The position numbers and the translations under genes were made by a program. A stretch of DNA of 36,159 bases from an uncultured Bacilli bacterium (GTDB lineage: Bacteria > Bacillota_I > Bacilli_A > RF39 > UBA660), in the NCBI GenBank assembly GCA_944358455.1, contig CALVRE010000028.1, positions 1 to 36,159 on the forward strand. Reading direction: 5' to 3'. Of the stretch, positions 16,048 to 24,490 are shown in pieces (within the stretch, counting starts at the first letter, position 1; each line of letters starts with the position of its first letter). The notes under the pieces are model-generated. The model saw nothing but the letters and a program-made list of their open reading frames with translations, made no database searches and was not told the origin of the DNA.

Positions 16048-18195
16048 ATGAAGAAAATAATAGTAGGTATCGTTATATTTATGATGGGAATCAATGTAAT
16101 AAGGGCAAAAACTTATTATAGTGATTATTCTGAATTTAGTGATTATTCGTCTGTACCAGTTTTAGAAAGTGATACCGTCAATGTAGAAACAGAGACTTGG
16201 TATAAGTGGTATCGTGAAGAAAAAGAACTAGGTCCATATCAAAATCAATATGTTTATAATCCAGATTATCCATTGGTAGATTTACAAGATTCTATCGAAG
16301 GGGAATGGGGTCCATGGGGATATGAAAAACCAGAAATAATATTAGAACGAATTCTTCAAAGAAGAAGTGTTTATCTTTATCAGGATATGAAAGAAGTTCG
16401 TTATCTTCACTTTTTTGGTTTGTCTGGAAGTAATCAACGATTCTATATAAGTGAATTAGAAGTTTATGTCAATGGAAATAAAGTAGATTATACGATTACT
16501 TGTGATAATTGTAGTGAGTATTTTAAACAATCCATTCAAAATGGAAATACGAAGGAAACGGATGTATATGTTGATAATGGCGTAGAATTTCGTATTGATT
16601 TAAACAATTATTACCCAGCGGATACCATTACATTTGACTTGTATTTATTTGATACGGGGTATGATCAGAAAGAATATCGTGTGAAAATGACACGTGACAA
16701 AGATGAAGATCAGAACGTTTATTTTGAAGGATATTGGATTCAATGTTTTACTTATCAAAGTGCGGATGAAATTGTTCCTATTCATCATTCGATTGATCAG
16801 ATGGTGAGGAAGGATCCAGAGTGGTATGATCAAAAAGAAAGCTTAGAACCAATCGAAGAAACGAAGGTTCGTATGGTTGAAGAACGTGATCAATATCGTT
16901 ATATTGACTATAGACAATATCGTTGTTACCGAATAAAACGTATTTATCAAGATGGATATGGAAAATCAGGAACAGAAGAGTTTCCCTTTTTCGATGCTGA
17001 TGACAGTATGCAATATTATCGTTATCGAGTACGCGATAAATTGGTATTGAAAGAACCACTTGTGATCGATCAAGTAACGATGAATATGCAAGATCTCATA
17101 TTAGAGAGTACCAAACCAGTTGACATGGAAGGATTTGTTGATTTTACTAGGAATGGTGAATATTCTATTACATTTAAAATGGATGATCTGGTTGTGACTG
17201 AGAATATTACCGTTGATATTTTGGAAAATGATCTGCGTCAATATGAAGAACTAGTTATTGAACTTGAAAGAATAATCGATGAGCAACAAAAAGTAATTGA
17301 ACAATTACAATTGGAAAAACAACAATTAGAGGAAGTTATTTTAACTGAACAAGAAATGGCAGATATAATACGGGAACAATTAATATCATTAGAAGATGAA
17401 TTGACGAATTTGAAGCAAGAAAAAGAAACTGTGAGTAATATGCTCGATGTAGTCAAGGCCGATTATGAAAAATTACAAGAAGAAGATCAAAAGAAAGAAG
17501 ATGTGCTTGTCGAGTTACAAAAGCAATTACATTCGTTGGAACAAAAGATGGAATTTCAAGAAAAAGAAATGCAAATAATCGAAAATCAAAAACAATTATT
17601 AGAACAACAATTGTCAGAATTTGAAGTGTGGAATCAAACATCGAAAGAACAAATACAATCATTAGAAGAAACCTTAAAACATCGACAACAAGAATTGATT
17701 GAGTTCGAAGAACGAAAGAAATGGTTAGAAGAACAGTTATCTGAGTTAAATTTACAGAATCAAACGATGAATGAAACGATTCAGACATTGGAAAAAGAAA
17801 AACAAGCGTGGTATGAAAAATTTTTCTCTGGGGAAGAAAAAGTAAATGACTTAAAGTTGAAAATCAATGAATTAATTGTGGAAAATCAAAATTTATTAAT
17901 GAATATCGAACAATTAACAACGGAAAAAGAATCATTAGTTGAGAATTATCAACAAGAATTAATTCGCTTAGATTTGGATCTTGTACAAGAAAAGACTAAG
18001 TTAGAAGAAGCAAATGCCAATGAATATACTTGTCGTTATGAACTAGAAGAACTCAAAACATCTTATGAGGAAAAGACAAAGTCAGAAAATCGATCTTTTA
18101 TTCCACGTTTATTTTTATATGGCATCTTTATTTTAGGAATCTTTTTATTTCTTATAGGAATTTATTTTGTCATCCGTTTTAAAAAACGTAAATAA
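16048..18195 (+). CDS. Membrane-anchored coiled-coil surface protein
   Basis: 715 residues. An N-terminal signal peptide ends about residue 20. A Tyr/Trp-rich head carries YYSDYSEFSDYS, then ETETWYKWY and EGEWGPWGYEK, and two later YRYR-type segments. A 300-residue coiled coil (about 380-680), full of Glu/Gln/Leu heptads, leads to a single C-terminal membrane helix (about 690-710) with a basic tail FKKRK. Topology is therefore an external rod held by its C-terminus. I know of no named family; the aromatic SDYS...YKWY head resembles modules in other gut Bacillota surface proteins. RBS AGGAGGTG. Confidence 0.8.
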   Translation: MKKIIVGIVIFMMGINVIRAKTYYSDYSEFSDYSSVPVLESDTVNVETETWYKWYREEKELGPYQNQYVYNPDYPLVDLQDSIEGEWGPWGYEKPEIILERILQRRSVYLYQDMKEVRYLHFFGLSGSNQRFYISELEVYVNGNKVDYTITCDNCSEYFKQSIQNGNTKETDVYVDNGVEFRIDLNNYYPADTITFDLYLFDTGYDQKEYRVKMTRDKDEDQNVYFEGYWIQCFTYQSADEIVPIHHSIDQMVRKDPEWYDQKESLEPIEETKVRMVEERDQYRYIDYRQYRCYRIKRIYQDGYGKSGTEEFPFFDADDSMQYYRYRVRDKLVLKEPLVIDQVTMNMQDLILESTKPVDMEGFVDFTRNGEYSITFKMDDLVVTENITVDILENDLRQYEELVIELERIIDEQQKVIEQLQLEKQQLEEVILTEQEMADIIREQLISLEDELTNLKQEKETVSNMLDVVKADYEKLQEEDQKKEDVLVELQKQLHSLEQKMEFQEKEMQIIENQKQLLEQQLSEFEVWNQTSKEQIQSLEETLKHRQQELIEFEERKKWLEEQLSELNLQNQTMNETIQTLEKEKQAWYEKFFSGEEKVNDLKLKINELIVENQNLLMNIEQLTTEKESLVENYQQELIRLDLDLVQEKTKLEEANANEYTCRYELEELKTSYEEKTKSENRSFIPRLFLYGIFILGIFLFLIGIYFVIRFKKRK

Positions 18196-18198
18196 TTT

Positions 18199-18247
18199 TT
18201 CTACTTTTGTCGAATTGGTTTATGGCAGTGTCAAAAAGTGTTAAATT
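18199..18247 (+). promoter_or_regulatory. Candidate alternative-sigma promoter of the STAS gene (copy A)
   Basis: TTCTA (18199-18203), 5 nt, GTCGAATTGGTTTA (18209-18222), 15 nt, GTGTTAAATT (18238-18247). The same block, with the same spacing, precedes the sigma gene at 20018-20066, while the 15-nt spacer itself is not conserved. It lacks a sigma-A -35/-10 pair. GGTTTA would be the -35 and GTGTTAAATT the -10. Confidence 0.6.
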
Positions 18248-18264
18248 AGATGTGAGGTGATTTT

Positions 18265-18612
18265 ATGCTAGATATCAATATGGAATTTCGTAAGGGAATC
18301 TTATTTGTTCGCCTCAGTGGAGAACTTACCAAGAATACAGTGAATCAGTTAAATGAAGAGGTGACGAAGAGAATCGAAAAAAGTGGAATTAATAATGTCG
18401 TCTTTAATATTGAAGAATTAAATGTTATTGACATTAAAGGAATTCATGCTTTATTTTATAATTATGAAGTTTGTCATAAAGGTCATGGAAAGACTTTGTT
18501 ATGTGGTTTAAATAACACTCTCGTCAAACATCGAATTGAACATAGCCGTTTACTAAAATATATGTTAGAGGCGAGTGATGAACTTAGTGCCTTTACAATG
18601 ATTGATTTATAA
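18265..18612 (+). CDS. STAS-domain protein (SpoIIAA/RsbV-like) without phospho-serine
   Basis: 115 residues covering one complete STAS domain, the fold of anti-sigma-factor antagonists. The opening MEFRKGILFVRLSGELT is typical. In SpoIIAA and RsbV the segment reads D-S-S-G-L, with the serine phosphorylated by the anti-sigma kinase. Here it is VIDIKGIHAL, with Ile and Lys in place of the two serines. It therefore cannot be switched by the usual phosphorylation, if it still partners a SpoIIAB/RsbW-type kinase. RBS GAGGTG. It shares its upstream block with the sigma gene at 20091, which supports a joint role. It could alternatively have drifted to another STAS function. Confidence 0.82.
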   Translation: MLDINMEFRKGILFVRLSGELTKNTVNQLNEEVTKRIEKSGINNVVFNIEELNVIDIKGIHALFYNYEVCHKGHGKTLLCGLNNTLVKHRIEHSRLLKYMLEASDELSAFTMIDL

Positions 18613-18663: not shown

Positions 18664-18760
18664 TTCTTATCAAGAGAGGCAGAGGGAATAGGCCCTACGA
18701 AGCCCAGCAACCTACCGAATGGTGTGGTGCTAAATCCTACGGGAAACCGATAGATAAGTA
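18664..18760 (+). promoter_or_regulatory. SAM-I (S-box) riboswitch
   Basis: P1 is CTTATC (18666-18671) with GATAAG (18753-18758). The S-box conserved blocks are present: AGAGAGGCAGAGGGA, GAAGCCCAGCAACC, GGTGCTAAATCC. SAM binding stabilises P1. The 3' arm TAAGTA (18755-18760) can instead pair with TACTTA (18769-18774) as antiterminator. Confidence 0.97.
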
Positions 18761-18820: not shown

Positions 18821-19987
18821 ATGGAAACTTTAAAAACATGTGAAATGGTGATGAAAGGACATCCTGATAAATTATGTGATCAAATTGCTGATGCGATTAT
18901 GGATGAATATTATCGTCATGATCAGTATGCCAAAACAGCGATCGAAGTATGTGCAAGTTACAAACGCATTTTAATTATGGGAGAGGTGACAAGTATTTAT
19001 CAATTTGATATCGAATCTCTCGTGCGTAAGGTTATTTGTGAAATTGGTTATGATAGGGATGAATTAGGTTTCAATGGGAACACGATATCAATCGATATCG
19101 ATCTTCATGAACAGTCTTCGGACATTGCATTAGGAGTTGATCAATCGAGTGATGATATGAAAGAATGGGGGGCCGGTGATCAAGGAATGATGTATGGATA
19201 TGCGACAAATGAAACGGAAACTTATATGCCATTACCCTATGTATTAACACAAAAATTAGCTTTTTCATTAGAAAAGGCACATGAGAAATTACCTTATTTG
19301 CGTCCAGATGGTAAAATGCAAGTAACGGTTTTATATAGCGGGAAAAAACCAATAAAAGTAACCAGTATTGTTTTGTCCACACAACACGATGAAATAGATA
19401 TCACTAAACTTCGCAAAGAGATCAAAGAATACGTGATTGATCCAGTTATACCCAAAGAACTGATCAATGAGGATATGATGATTCAAATTAATCCGACCGG
19501 ACGATTTGTCATTGGTGGACCGGTTGGTGATACAGGATTAACAGGAAGGAAGATTATGGTCGATACTTACGGTGGAATTGCGCATCACGGTGGTGGATCT
19601 TTCAGTGGAAAAGATATGACGAAAGTAGATCGCAGTGCAGCTTATTACGCTCGTTATGTTGCTAAAAATGTCGTGGCAGCTAAATTGTGTGATGAATGCG
19701 AAATTGCTCTTTCTTATGCGATTGGAACAAGCAGGCCGACGATGATTCAAGTTAATACGTTTGGAACCGAAAAAATTCCTGTCGAAACGATTCAAAAAAT
19801 AATTGAGGAAAATTTTGATTTCCGCCCAAAGCATATGATCGAAGAATTAAAATTAAAAGAAATTCCTTATTTTCCTCTAGCTAGTTATGGCCATTTTGGA
19901 AGAAATGATCAAAATCTTTCTTATGAAAAATGTGACAAAGTAAAACAGATTCAAGAAACTCTTAAAAGACAACAAATTTCTCTTTAA
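18821..19987 (+). CDS. metK: S-adenosylmethionine synthetase
   Basis: 388 residues, near family length. It makes S-adenosylmethionine from methionine and ATP. Signatures: GHPDKLCDQIADAI near the N-terminus, GAGDQGMMYGYA in the centre, and the P-loop-like GGGSFSGKDMTKVDRSAAY (about 251-270). Most bacterial MetK have TEGHPDK where this has MKGHPDK, so it belongs to a somewhat divergent subgroup. RBS AGGAGG. Repressed by SAM through the S-box leader just upstream. It sits between the STAS and sigma genes. Confidence 0.97.
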   Translation: METLKTCEMVMKGHPDKLCDQIADAIMDEYYRHDQYAKTAIEVCASYKRILIMGEVTSIYQFDIESLVRKVICEIGYDRDELGFNGNTISIDIDLHEQSSDIALGVDQSSDDMKEWGAGDQGMMYGYATNETETYMPLPYVLTQKLAFSLEKAHEKLPYLRPDGKMQVTVLYSGKKPIKVTSIVLSTQHDEIDITKLRKEIKEYVIDPVIPKELINEDMMIQINPTGRFVIGGPVGDTGLTGRKIMVDTYGGIAHHGGGSFSGKDMTKVDRSAAYYARYVAKNVVAAKLCDECEIALSYAIGTSRPTMIQVNTFGTEKIPVETIQKIIEENFDFRPKHMIEELKLKEIPYFPLASYGHFGRNDQNLSYEKCDKVKQIQETLKRQQISL

Positions 19988-20017: not shown

Positions 20018-20066
20018 TTCTATTTGTGTCGAACTGGTATAAATATCATTTTTCTTGTGCTAAATT
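20018..20066 (+). promoter_or_regulatory. Candidate alternative-sigma promoter of the sigma gene (copy B)
   Basis: TTCTA (20018-20022), 5 nt, GTCGAACTGGTATA (20028-20041), 15 nt, GTGCTAAATT (20057-20066). Aligned without gaps to copy A, 20 of the first 24 and 9 of the last 10 bases are identical. GGTATA is close to the -35 (GTATA) of the SigF/SigG group. Confidence 0.6.
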
Positions 20067-20090
20067 GTAATAGCAAGAGGAGGAATTTTT

Positions 20091-20762
20091 ATGAATACAG
20101 AATTGACCGATTTAGTATTGGAAAATGAAAAACTTCTTTATTCTATCATCCATAAATATTTTCCTAATTATCCAAATAAAGAAGATTTATTACAAGTGGG
20201 CAGTATTGGATTATTGAAGGCTTATCAGAATTTTGACCCAACCAAAGGTGCAAAATTGACAACTTATGCTTATCCGTATATTTATGGTGAGATGAAAAAA
20301 TATGTGCGTGAAGATCGAGGAATAAAAGTAAGTCGGGAATTATCAATTTTAAACTTGAAACTTGATCGTGTAAGTTTAATGCTTTCACAATCACTTCATC
20401 GAGAACCGACCGTATCGGAACTAGCACAATATTTAGGTGTTACAGAATTCGATATTATGGAGGCTAGATCGGCAACTAGTCCTATTCATAGTATTGATGA
20501 ACCAATCAATCAAGATGGAAAAGAAATGACTCTTCATGATACTATTGCTGATACGACTCATCGTGCTGATATTGATTTACTTCTAACGCTACGTAGTGAA
20601 TTAAAAAAATTATCATTAAATGAACAACAATTAATCGAACGCCGTTATATGGAAGATATGACACAGACGGAAACGGCTAAAAGTATGGGAATGACACAAG
20701 TACAAGTATCCCGTAGTGAAAATAAAGTCTTATCAAAATTACGCACTAGAATGATGAGTTAG
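20091..20762 (+). CDS. Sigma-70 family factor of the SigF/SigG/SigB group
   Basis: 223 residues, similar in length to SigF. Region 2 is DLLQVGSIGLLKAYQNFD with TTYAYPYIYGEMKKYVRED, the pattern of sporulation and general-stress sigma factors. Region 3 is about 95-160. Region 4 (about 175-222) contains LIERRYMEDMTQTETAKSMG and a helix-turn-helix ending VQVSRSENK. There is no region 1.1, so it is an alternative rather than the primary factor. RBS GAGGAGG. A candidate autoregulatory promoter lies upstream and is shared with the STAS gene. Whether it serves sporulation or stress cannot be decided from the sequence. Confidence 0.9.
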   Translation: MNTELTDLVLENEKLLYSIIHKYFPNYPNKEDLLQVGSIGLLKAYQNFDPTKGAKLTTYAYPYIYGEMKKYVREDRGIKVSRELSILNLKLDRVSLMLSQSLHREPTVSELAQYLGVTEFDIMEARSATSPIHSIDEPINQDGKEMTLHDTIADTTHRADIDLLLTLRSELKKLSLNEQQLIERRYMEDMTQTETAKSMGMTQVQVSRSENKVLSKLRTRMMS

Positions 20763-22441: not shown

Positions 22442-22560
22442 ATTGATTATAAACGTAGGAAGGAATTGAGCTTAAATTTAGATATGAGAAGATTTTTGGG
22501 ATAATGGTTGTTTCTGAAATTATTTTTTTTCGTATTCTAAAAATAGGAGGAGAGGATAAA

Positions 22561-23358
22561 ATGGATGATATTTATCAAAGGGCTCTTTGTAAAGTAGAAA
22601 ATGGTAAAAAATGTAGACCTAACTGTTGCATTGTTGCGGGTTTAACAGGACCAACTGGAGCAACGGGACCAACTGGAGCAACGGGACCAACTGGAGCAAC
22701 GGGACCAACTGGAGCAACAGGACCAATTGGAGCAACAGGATCAATTGGAGCAACGGGACCAACTGGAGCAACAGGATCAATTGGAGCAACGGGACCAACT
22801 GGAGCAACGGGACCAACTGGAGCAACAGGACCGACTGGAGCAACGGGACCAACTGGAGCAACGGGACCAACTGGGGCAACGGGACCAACTGGGGCAACGG
22901 GACCAATTGGAGCAACGGGACCAACTGGAGCAATTGCCCCAACAGAAGCGTTAACGGCAGTAGATCCAGCTCCACAACCAAGTACGGCTAATCAGCCATT
23001 AACATTTCAAAACAATGTCGTTTTAGTAGGAGATTCTATTTCTCATGATACAAATTCATCAGACCTATTAATTTCGAATAATGGTATATATCAAGTTCTT
23101 TTTAACGGTAGTGTTGGTCCATTGTCCACTACTACTTTGCCTGCTTCAGTTACCATTTATTTGACCGAGAATGGTTCCATCAGTAATGTTGGTGTAGCAA
23201 GAAGTGTATTTAATGAGACAGATGTTAATACAATTTCTTTTCAAGGACTTTTAAATGTTACTGATGCACCAGTTACATTAAATGTATTAGTAGAAAATTC
23301 TGGATTTATATTTAGTGATGTTACCATAACAATTATTAAAATAGGGGATATTAATTGA
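22561..23358 (+). CDS. Collagen-like protein 1 (BclA-like layout)
   Basis: 265 residues from the ATG at 22561, which follows AGGAGGAGAGG; the frame is open from 22504. Leader [11 protein letters not shown] (residues 1-11) continues with cysteines at about 10, 18, 22 and 23 and is nearly repeated in the next gene. About 33 Gly-X-Y triplets, mostly GPT-GAT, run from residue 27 to about 125. The C-terminal ~135 residues are a beta-rich globular domain like the C1q/TNF-like trimerising heads of BclA. There is no classic signal peptide. Likely a trimeric surface filament, possibly a spore-surface or exosporium-type protein and O-glycosylated by the neighbouring enzyme; that part is inference. Confidence 0.87.
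22648..22935 (+). repeat. 18-bp tandem repeat array, 16 units
   Basis: Exactly 288 bp of GGACCAACTGGAGCAACG-type units encoding GPTGAT. Variants differ by single bases (ACG/ACA, CCA/TCA, ACT/ATT, GGA/GGG). The unit length keeps frame, so copy-number change would lengthen or shorten the filament without breaking the gene. Confidence 0.95.
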
Positions 23359-23494
23359 AATTTTGATAGATATTTATGATTAGATGTTAATTTGTATGAC
23401 CTATTTATTAAATAATATCGTTTTTATTTATAAAAGTTACTTTTTCGTGATAGTTGCTCTTTCTAAATCTTTTTTTTCTCATATTTTATATTAG

Positions 23495-24490
<996 letters not shown>

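Follow-up and report, generated by a model that had tools for sequence, protein, structure and literature searches.

A SpoIIAA orthologue without the phospho-serine that probably outlives a dismantled sigmaF phosphoswitch in a family of Bacilli

The switch formed by SpoIIE, SpoIIAA, SpoIIAB and sigmaF serves as the textbook example of two compartments with the same genome taking on different fates. In the window, that is, the whole stretch of 36,159 nucleotides from an uncultured Bacilli bacterium analysed here, an open reading frame encodes a SpoIIAA-like protein that reads D-I-K-G where SpoIIAA reads D-S-S-G. This raises the question of what an anti-anti-sigma-like protein devoid of its phospho-serine may do in the vicinity of a sigma factor. 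The features of this reading frame are as follows:

18265..18612, plus strand: SpoIIAA-like STAS protein of 115 amino acids (Pfam, TIGRFAM, PDB, AlphaFold2 and Foldseek)
18430..18441, plus strand: D-I-K-G codons replacing D-S-S-G (alignment with 1auz and family alignment)

The reading frame is preceded by an AGGTG ribosome-binding site (18255-18259), and its product matches the Pfam STAS family with an E-value of 3e-16. The nearest curated family is TIGR02886 spoIIAA (2.7e-15), where the score of 56.2 bits lies below the equivalog cut-off of 114.75 bits, and the nearest solved structures are the SpoIIAA entries 1auz, 1tid and 1th8 of the PDB (1e-12). Moreover, AlphaFold2 modelling with 43 family sequences yielded a pLDDT of 95.8 and a pTM of 0.89, and the top Foldseek matches of this model are the SpoIIAA chains of the SpoIIAB complex (1thn_B, TM 0.92, rmsd 1.5). 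Pfam, AlphaFold2 and Foldseek hence agree on a single STAS domain with the SpoIIAA fold, in line with the initial annotation, which had described the fold outside the loop as intact. In the alignment with 1auz, which is free of gaps around the loop, D-I-K-G falls under D57-S58-S59-G60, and Ile57 (codon 18433-18435) occupies the position of the phospho-serine, S58 in B. subtilis. The absence of the serine, likewise proposed from the DNA, is thereby corroborated: in place of the phosphorylatable Ser of the D-S-S/T-G loop the protein has Ile, and the proposal that it works without phosphorylation of a loop serine holds to this extent. The second genome of the genus contains the identical DIKG, and DIKG or a similar motif recurs across the family. 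A sequencing error, a frameshift or a pseudogene can be dismissed, because the reading frame is intact in two species, dN/dS amounts to 0.096 and the fold model is confident. Taken together, these results confirm that ORF 18265-18612 is a SpoIIAA orthologue with DIKG in place of DSSG, and that the loss of the serine is fixed in the genus.

The family set comprised 58 genomes including the window genome, drafts that are mostly 85-98% complete, and 43 STAS homologues were aligned over 115 columns. For comparison we used 12 SpoIIAAs, namely that of B. subtilis and those of 11 same-class outgroup loci with an adjacent spoIIAB, two of which (L028 and L071) are seemingly one gene. Site 58 is devoid of Ser or Thr in 40 of the 43 family homologues, with N in eight, I, E and L in five each, M and K in four each, Y in three, S and A in two each, and Q, R, D, G and T in one each. 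The entropy at this site, 3.48 bits, is the highest among the 115 family columns; in the comparison SpoIIAAs it is zero (Ser in 12/12). An alignment of orthologues had been suggested as a check on whether the serine loss is fixed in the lineage, and with two Ser and one Thr among 43 sequences the loss proves to be lineage-wide. In the three family genomes that keep Ser or Thr at the site, the search with the SpoIIAB model revealed no detectable SpoIIAB. A substitute phospho-acceptor within the loop was likewise considered and rejected: Ser or Thr is found within positions 57-61 in only 11 of the 43 sequences, and position 59 is mostly K, Y or E.

Among the residues that contact partners, E21 is kept in 11/43 homologues, D23 and S58 in 2/43 each, and R67 in none. 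F55 is likewise kept in none; the fold residues G20 (43/43), D57 (39/43) and G76 (41/43) are retained. In the known systems, superposing SpoIIAA and sigmaF on SpoIIAB brings Glu21 of SpoIIAA into a clash with sigmaF, and Asp23 of RsbV contacts RsbW (PMC7340262), while Arg67 of SpoIIAA lies in the interfaces with both SpoIIE and SpoIIAB (PMC11418112). In addition, E7, K10, G11 and F14 (window numbering), located in the first hairpin, are better conserved in the family than in the outgroups, and N48, C80 and the C-terminal residues E106 and A109 remain conserved. Read from sequence and secondary structure, this newly conserved face suggests that one binding surface of the STAS protein has been released, so to speak, and another held.

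The search for the kinase gave a uniform picture. With the SpoIIAB model, a SpoIIAB/RsbW-type kinase was found above the cut-off in 0 of the 58 family genomes (no match exceeded 45 bits); on 10 same-class outgroup genomes with spoIIAA-AB-sigF the model scored 157-186 bits. Nearly all of the family matches listed are long frames of the histidine-kinase type. The window genome revealed no short GHKL reading frame, since each of its 10 GHKL ATPase domains is part of a frame of 341-660 amino acids, and two short family frames (146 and 195 amino acids; G028 and G014), considered as a hidden short GHKL kinase, look like broken histidine kinases. The SpoIIE phosphatase domain was likewise above the cut-off in 0/58 family genomes, and it is present in all ten SpoIIAB-positive outgroup genomes. 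Thus, neither of the cognate partners of a SpoIIAA, SpoIIAB and SpoIIE, was detected in the window genome. With kinase and phosphatase gone, the phospho-serine and the residues contacting SpoIIAB and SpoIIE are no longer constrained.

With an estimated completeness of about 92% for the window genome, a classical switch might have been overlooked through assembly gaps or extreme divergence of both genes. We consider this highly improbable, as neither gene was found in any of the 58 genomes although their usual partners were, as the phospho-site and the SpoIIAB-contact residues were lost in parallel, and as the GHKL domains of the window genome are confined to long frames; the literature, too, reports reduction or absence of spoIIAB and spoIIE in the order RF39 (PMC10868615). 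The same result bears on the two functions that the initial annotation had offered. A constitutively active antagonist would have no target, as a SpoIIAB/RsbW-type kinase was detectable neither in the window genome nor in the 58 family genomes, and a partner swap without phosphorylation would need a partner of this very type.

A second collection, consisting of GTDB r220 contigs, some loci of which may duplicate genomes of the 58-genome set, yielded comparable loci. In L148 (DLKG) and in the four MAG loci L149-L152, a STAS protein without DSSG is encoded directly before the sigma gene, and no match to SpoIIAB was obtained in L148-L152. The Clostridia locus L153 keeps both DSSG and SpoIIAB.

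Of the sporulation programme, the majority of family genomes retain Spo0A, sigmaF, sigmaG and SpoIIR. A Spo0A match is present in 53/58 genomes, and SpoIIR in 33 of the 37 searched as well as in the window genome, which in addition encodes sigmaG, sigmaE/K-like factors and YqfC/YqfD-like proteins. As judged from this gene content, the programme is kept, but the four-protein sigmaF switch has shrunk to the STAS protein and sigmaF. Field et al. (2024) described that spoIIAB and spoIIE are reduced or absent in the order RF39, for which they predicted sporulation with a different regulation (PMC10868615); the gene pattern of the window genome fits this order. The window genome (G000:C31; L159:1212-1982 and 2097-2867) contains two tandem Spo0A paralogues of 256 amino acids each, an arrangement also seen in G001 and G028. 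It further harbors a second, truncated SpoIIAA-like STAS reading frame on the minus strand (G000:C43:43259-43507; L129:3260-3508), which comprises 82 amino acids with a GTG start, corresponds to the N-terminal two thirds of the domain and lies directly upstream of yqfC-/yqfD-like sporulation genes. A truncated frame of this kind is also present in G001, G016 and G006, adjoining yqfC/yqfD in G001 and G016, and possibly represents a repurposed STAS fragment. At positions 22504-24490, the window encodes two collagen-like repeat proteins of 284 and 326 amino acids, which resemble exosporium/BclA-type surface proteins.

The arrangement of the STAS gene relative to the sigma gene is given by the following features:

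18199..18249, plus strand: promoter block of the STAS gene, TTCTAcTTTTGTCGAA...GTTTA...TGTTAAATT
18205..18214, plus strand: putative Spo0A box TTTTGTCGAA upstream of the STAS gene, with the 7-bp core TGTCGAA
18619..18646, plus strand: sigma-A-type promoter of metK, TTGACA-16-TATAAT (12/12)
18664..18760, plus strand: SAM riboswitch (S box) of metK, in the unit that separates the STAS from the sigma gene in the genus
18821..19987, plus strand: metK, S-adenosylmethionine synthetase, not part of the switch (sequence and riboswitch)
20018..20067, plus strand: second Spo0A-box promoter block, before the sigma gene
20024..20033, plus strand: putative Spo0A box TTGTGTCGAA upstream of the sigma gene
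20091..20762, plus strand: sigma-F-like RNA polymerase sigma factor of 223 amino acids, regions 2, 3 and 4 present

The best solved match of the sigma factor is 1l0o_C, sigma-F of the SpoIIAB complex, which places it among the SigB/F/G-type factors; with TIGR02885 sigF it scored 181.2 bits, below the cut-off of 321.45, and a separate sigma-G is encoded in the window genome. The two promoter blocks share the consensus TTCTA-n-TT-n-TGTCGAA ... G-T-w-TA ... TG-y-TAAATT, whose TGTCGAA corresponds to the Spo0A-box core (PMC3485338). Out of 51 promoter regions belonging to the STAS/sigma unit, 38 contain the motif TTTGTCGAA, with an expectation of 0.0015 per region. The signal resides in its position across relatives, as scoring of Spo0A boxes inside the window is uninformative (8 matches with at most one mismatch vs 7.6 expected). 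From this distribution we infer that the STAS/sigma unit is controlled by Spo0A. In seven genomes (L080, L083, L093, L106, L113, L119 and L121), two Spo0A boxes lie exactly 26 nucleotides apart upstream of the unit, which suggests a fixed two-site architecture. Moreover, the G-T-w-TA element about 16 nucleotides before TGyTAAATT (window 18219-18249 and 20035-20069) resembles the sigmaF/sigmaG consensus, and sigmaF might itself act on the unit in an autoregulatory manner, in addition to the control by Spo0A.

In relatives, the STAS and sigma genes are adjacent or overlapping (spacing of -41 to +17 nucleotides, too small for SpoIIAB) and appear to be directly linked under a Spo0A-box promoter. 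A SpoVAC-type gene is located 3′ of the sigma gene in both relatives tested, with similar sequences in many others, and the gene order is that of the Bacillus spoIIA-spoVA locus minus spoIIAB. In the window genus, the STAS and sigma genes each have a promoter copy of their own because the SAM-riboswitch metK unit intervenes. The claim that a shared block ties the STAS gene transcriptionally to the sigma gene therefore stands as regards the two copies of the Spo0A-box promoter, but not as regards a shared transcript, which is not evident. Directly upstream of the STAS gene, at 16048-18195, lies the gene for a 715-amino-acid protein that has a transmembrane segment at its C-terminus besides a long coiled coil and shows no convincing family membership.

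A comparison of both species of the genus gave, for this one pair, dN/dS values of 0.096 for the STAS gene, which reflects purifying selection, and 0.053 for the sigma gene. The STAS protein is present in 43/51 sigmaF-positive family genomes and intact in 0/7 sigmaF-negative ones, counts that are not phylogenetically independent and may mean no more than that the locus was lost in its entirety. As eight sigmaF-positive genomes lack the STAS protein, it is not essential everywhere. In three such loci, the sigma gene is preceded by genes that were named by eye: one for a DacF-like D-Ala-D-Ala carboxypeptidase in L124 (G039), a D-Ala-D-Ala ligase-like gene in L125 (G041) and a TruB-like gene in L127 (G049). 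As read from the gene order, this is further operon reduction. In G057, which has lost sigmaF, a truncated STAS remnant (L118:5332-5610) is located upstream of scpA/scpB-looking genes.

The absence from eight sigmaF-positive genomes, the remnant in a sigmaF-negative one and the high divergence of the STAS protein within the family would be expected of a passenger that is being lost and held for now only by its translational coupling to sigmaF. However, the low dN/dS argues against this reading, some STAS residues are more conserved than in the outgroups, and in the window genus the gene is conserved with its own Spo0A-box promoter even though metK uncouples it from the sigma gene. We thus regard a mere vestige as improbable, and the data speak more for a modulating function within the sigmaF module than for decay alone.

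Taken together, the SpoIIAA orthologue has probably outlived the dismantled phosphoswitch and acts in the sigmaF module independently of phosphorylation, through a partner different from the former kinase. In this scenario, a genome-reduced family of Bacilli would have dismantled the classical sigmaF phosphoswitch with the loss of SpoIIAB and SpoIIE. The STAS protein would act early in sporulation, with Spo0A~P switching on its gene and that of sigmaF alike, and would contact a partner other than SpoIIAB through the newly conserved face (E7, K10, G11 and F14; E106 and A109) irrespective of phosphorylation. This partner would most likely belong to the sigmaF module, that is, sigmaF or its holoenzyme, because the presence or absence of the STAS protein follows sigmaF and not Spo0A. 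Since eight sigmaF-positive genomes have lost it, it would tune sigmaF rather than be essential for it, and it would chiefly be transcription under Spo0A control and/or an unrecognised inhibitor that keeps sigmaF in check.

A more specific version, which we put forward only tentatively, is that SpoIIAA has, after the loss of SpoIIAB, turned into a regulator that controls sigmaF directly and without phosphorylation, be it as an anti-sigma factor or as a co-factor, and that a two-protein switch of Spo0A-induced STAS protein and sigmaF replaces the four-protein phosphoswitch. AlphaFold2 modelling of an in-frame read-through fusion of both proteins (relative L087, stop codon read as Gly) gave a pTM of 0.49 and no confident relative placement. 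With respect to relaxation of the SpoIIAB contacts on sigmaF, the site entropies differ at few positions, and the scores of three outgroup sigmas were low.

The place of SpoIIAB could also have been taken by an anti-sigma factor that is unrelated to it and unrecognised, and that the STAS protein antagonises either constitutively or via a switch without phosphorylation; this would be the initial proposal with a different partner. As B. subtilis is killed by sigmaF that is active outside the forespore (PMC11418112), some restraint is to be expected, and the newly conserved surface points to a partner not used before. However, the STAS-sigma unit contains no candidate gene, short GHKL proteins are absent from the window genome, and sigmaF persists in the eight genomes lacking the STAS protein, which renders such a replacement rather unlikely. 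We are equally reserved about a role in negative feedback on Spo0A activation, an additional, SpoIIAB-independent function of B. subtilis SpoIIAA that a review (PMC8256260) attributes to Arabolaza 2003, and the only one that the STAS protein would have kept. The Spo0A-box promoter fits such a loop, as does the presence of Spo0A in most family genomes and its duplication in the window genome. Yet six of the seven sigmaF-negative genomes contain a match to the Spo0A C-domain, some of them weak or short, and none has an intact STAS protein.

The STAS protein shares features with several known systems and differs from each of them. With SpoIIAA of B. subtilis and G. stearothermophilus (TIGR02886; 1thn, 1auz) it shares the fold (TM 0.92), the best sequence match, the linkage to sigmaF and, in relatives, to SpoVAC, and the putative Spo0A-box promoter. 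It differs by Ile in place of phospho-Ser58, by the loss of the SpoIIAB/SpoIIE-contact residues, by its score below the equivalog cut-off and by a genome in which SpoIIAB and SpoIIE were not detected. RsbV and RsbS of the sigmaB and stressosome systems likewise have the STAS fold, and RsbV resembles SpoIIAA in being phosphorylated at the loop Ser and bound by a GHKL kinase, RsbW. Their structural match in the Foldseek search was weaker than that of SpoIIAA, and no RsbW-type kinase was found in the window genome. SypA, BtrV and RbaV are also STAS-domain-only proteins, for which targets beyond anti-sigma antagonism have been reported or suggested (PMC8256260); in contrast to the system described here, which lost all three, they retain serine, kinase and phosphatase. 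Finally, the RF39 sporulation set of Field et al. (2024) shows the same reduction or absence of spoIIAB and spoIIE with other spo genes kept, but the main text makes no mention of SpoIIAA, and the placement of the window in RF39 is deduced from gene content (PMC10868615). In the open-access literature we found no report of a serine-less SpoIIAA retained beside sigmaF. Hence, earlier work has already described that RF39 has reduced spoIIAB and spoIIE, and the eroded yet retained SpoIIAA appears to be new.

Because kinase and phosphatase were lost family-wide, these predicted spore-formers would control their first spore-specific sigma factor in another way. The family thereby offers a natural experiment on the decay of a phospho-site after loss of its kinase, in which the most constrained position of the loop became the most variable column, and it cautions that STAS proteins of this kind should not be annotated as functional anti-anti-sigma factors. 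A large family with Spo0A, sigmaF, sigmaG and SpoIIR and without the kinase and the phosphatase still has the former antagonist under selection and behind a Spo0A-box promoter, which makes it possible to test what is minimally required for sigmaF to be active specifically in the forespore.
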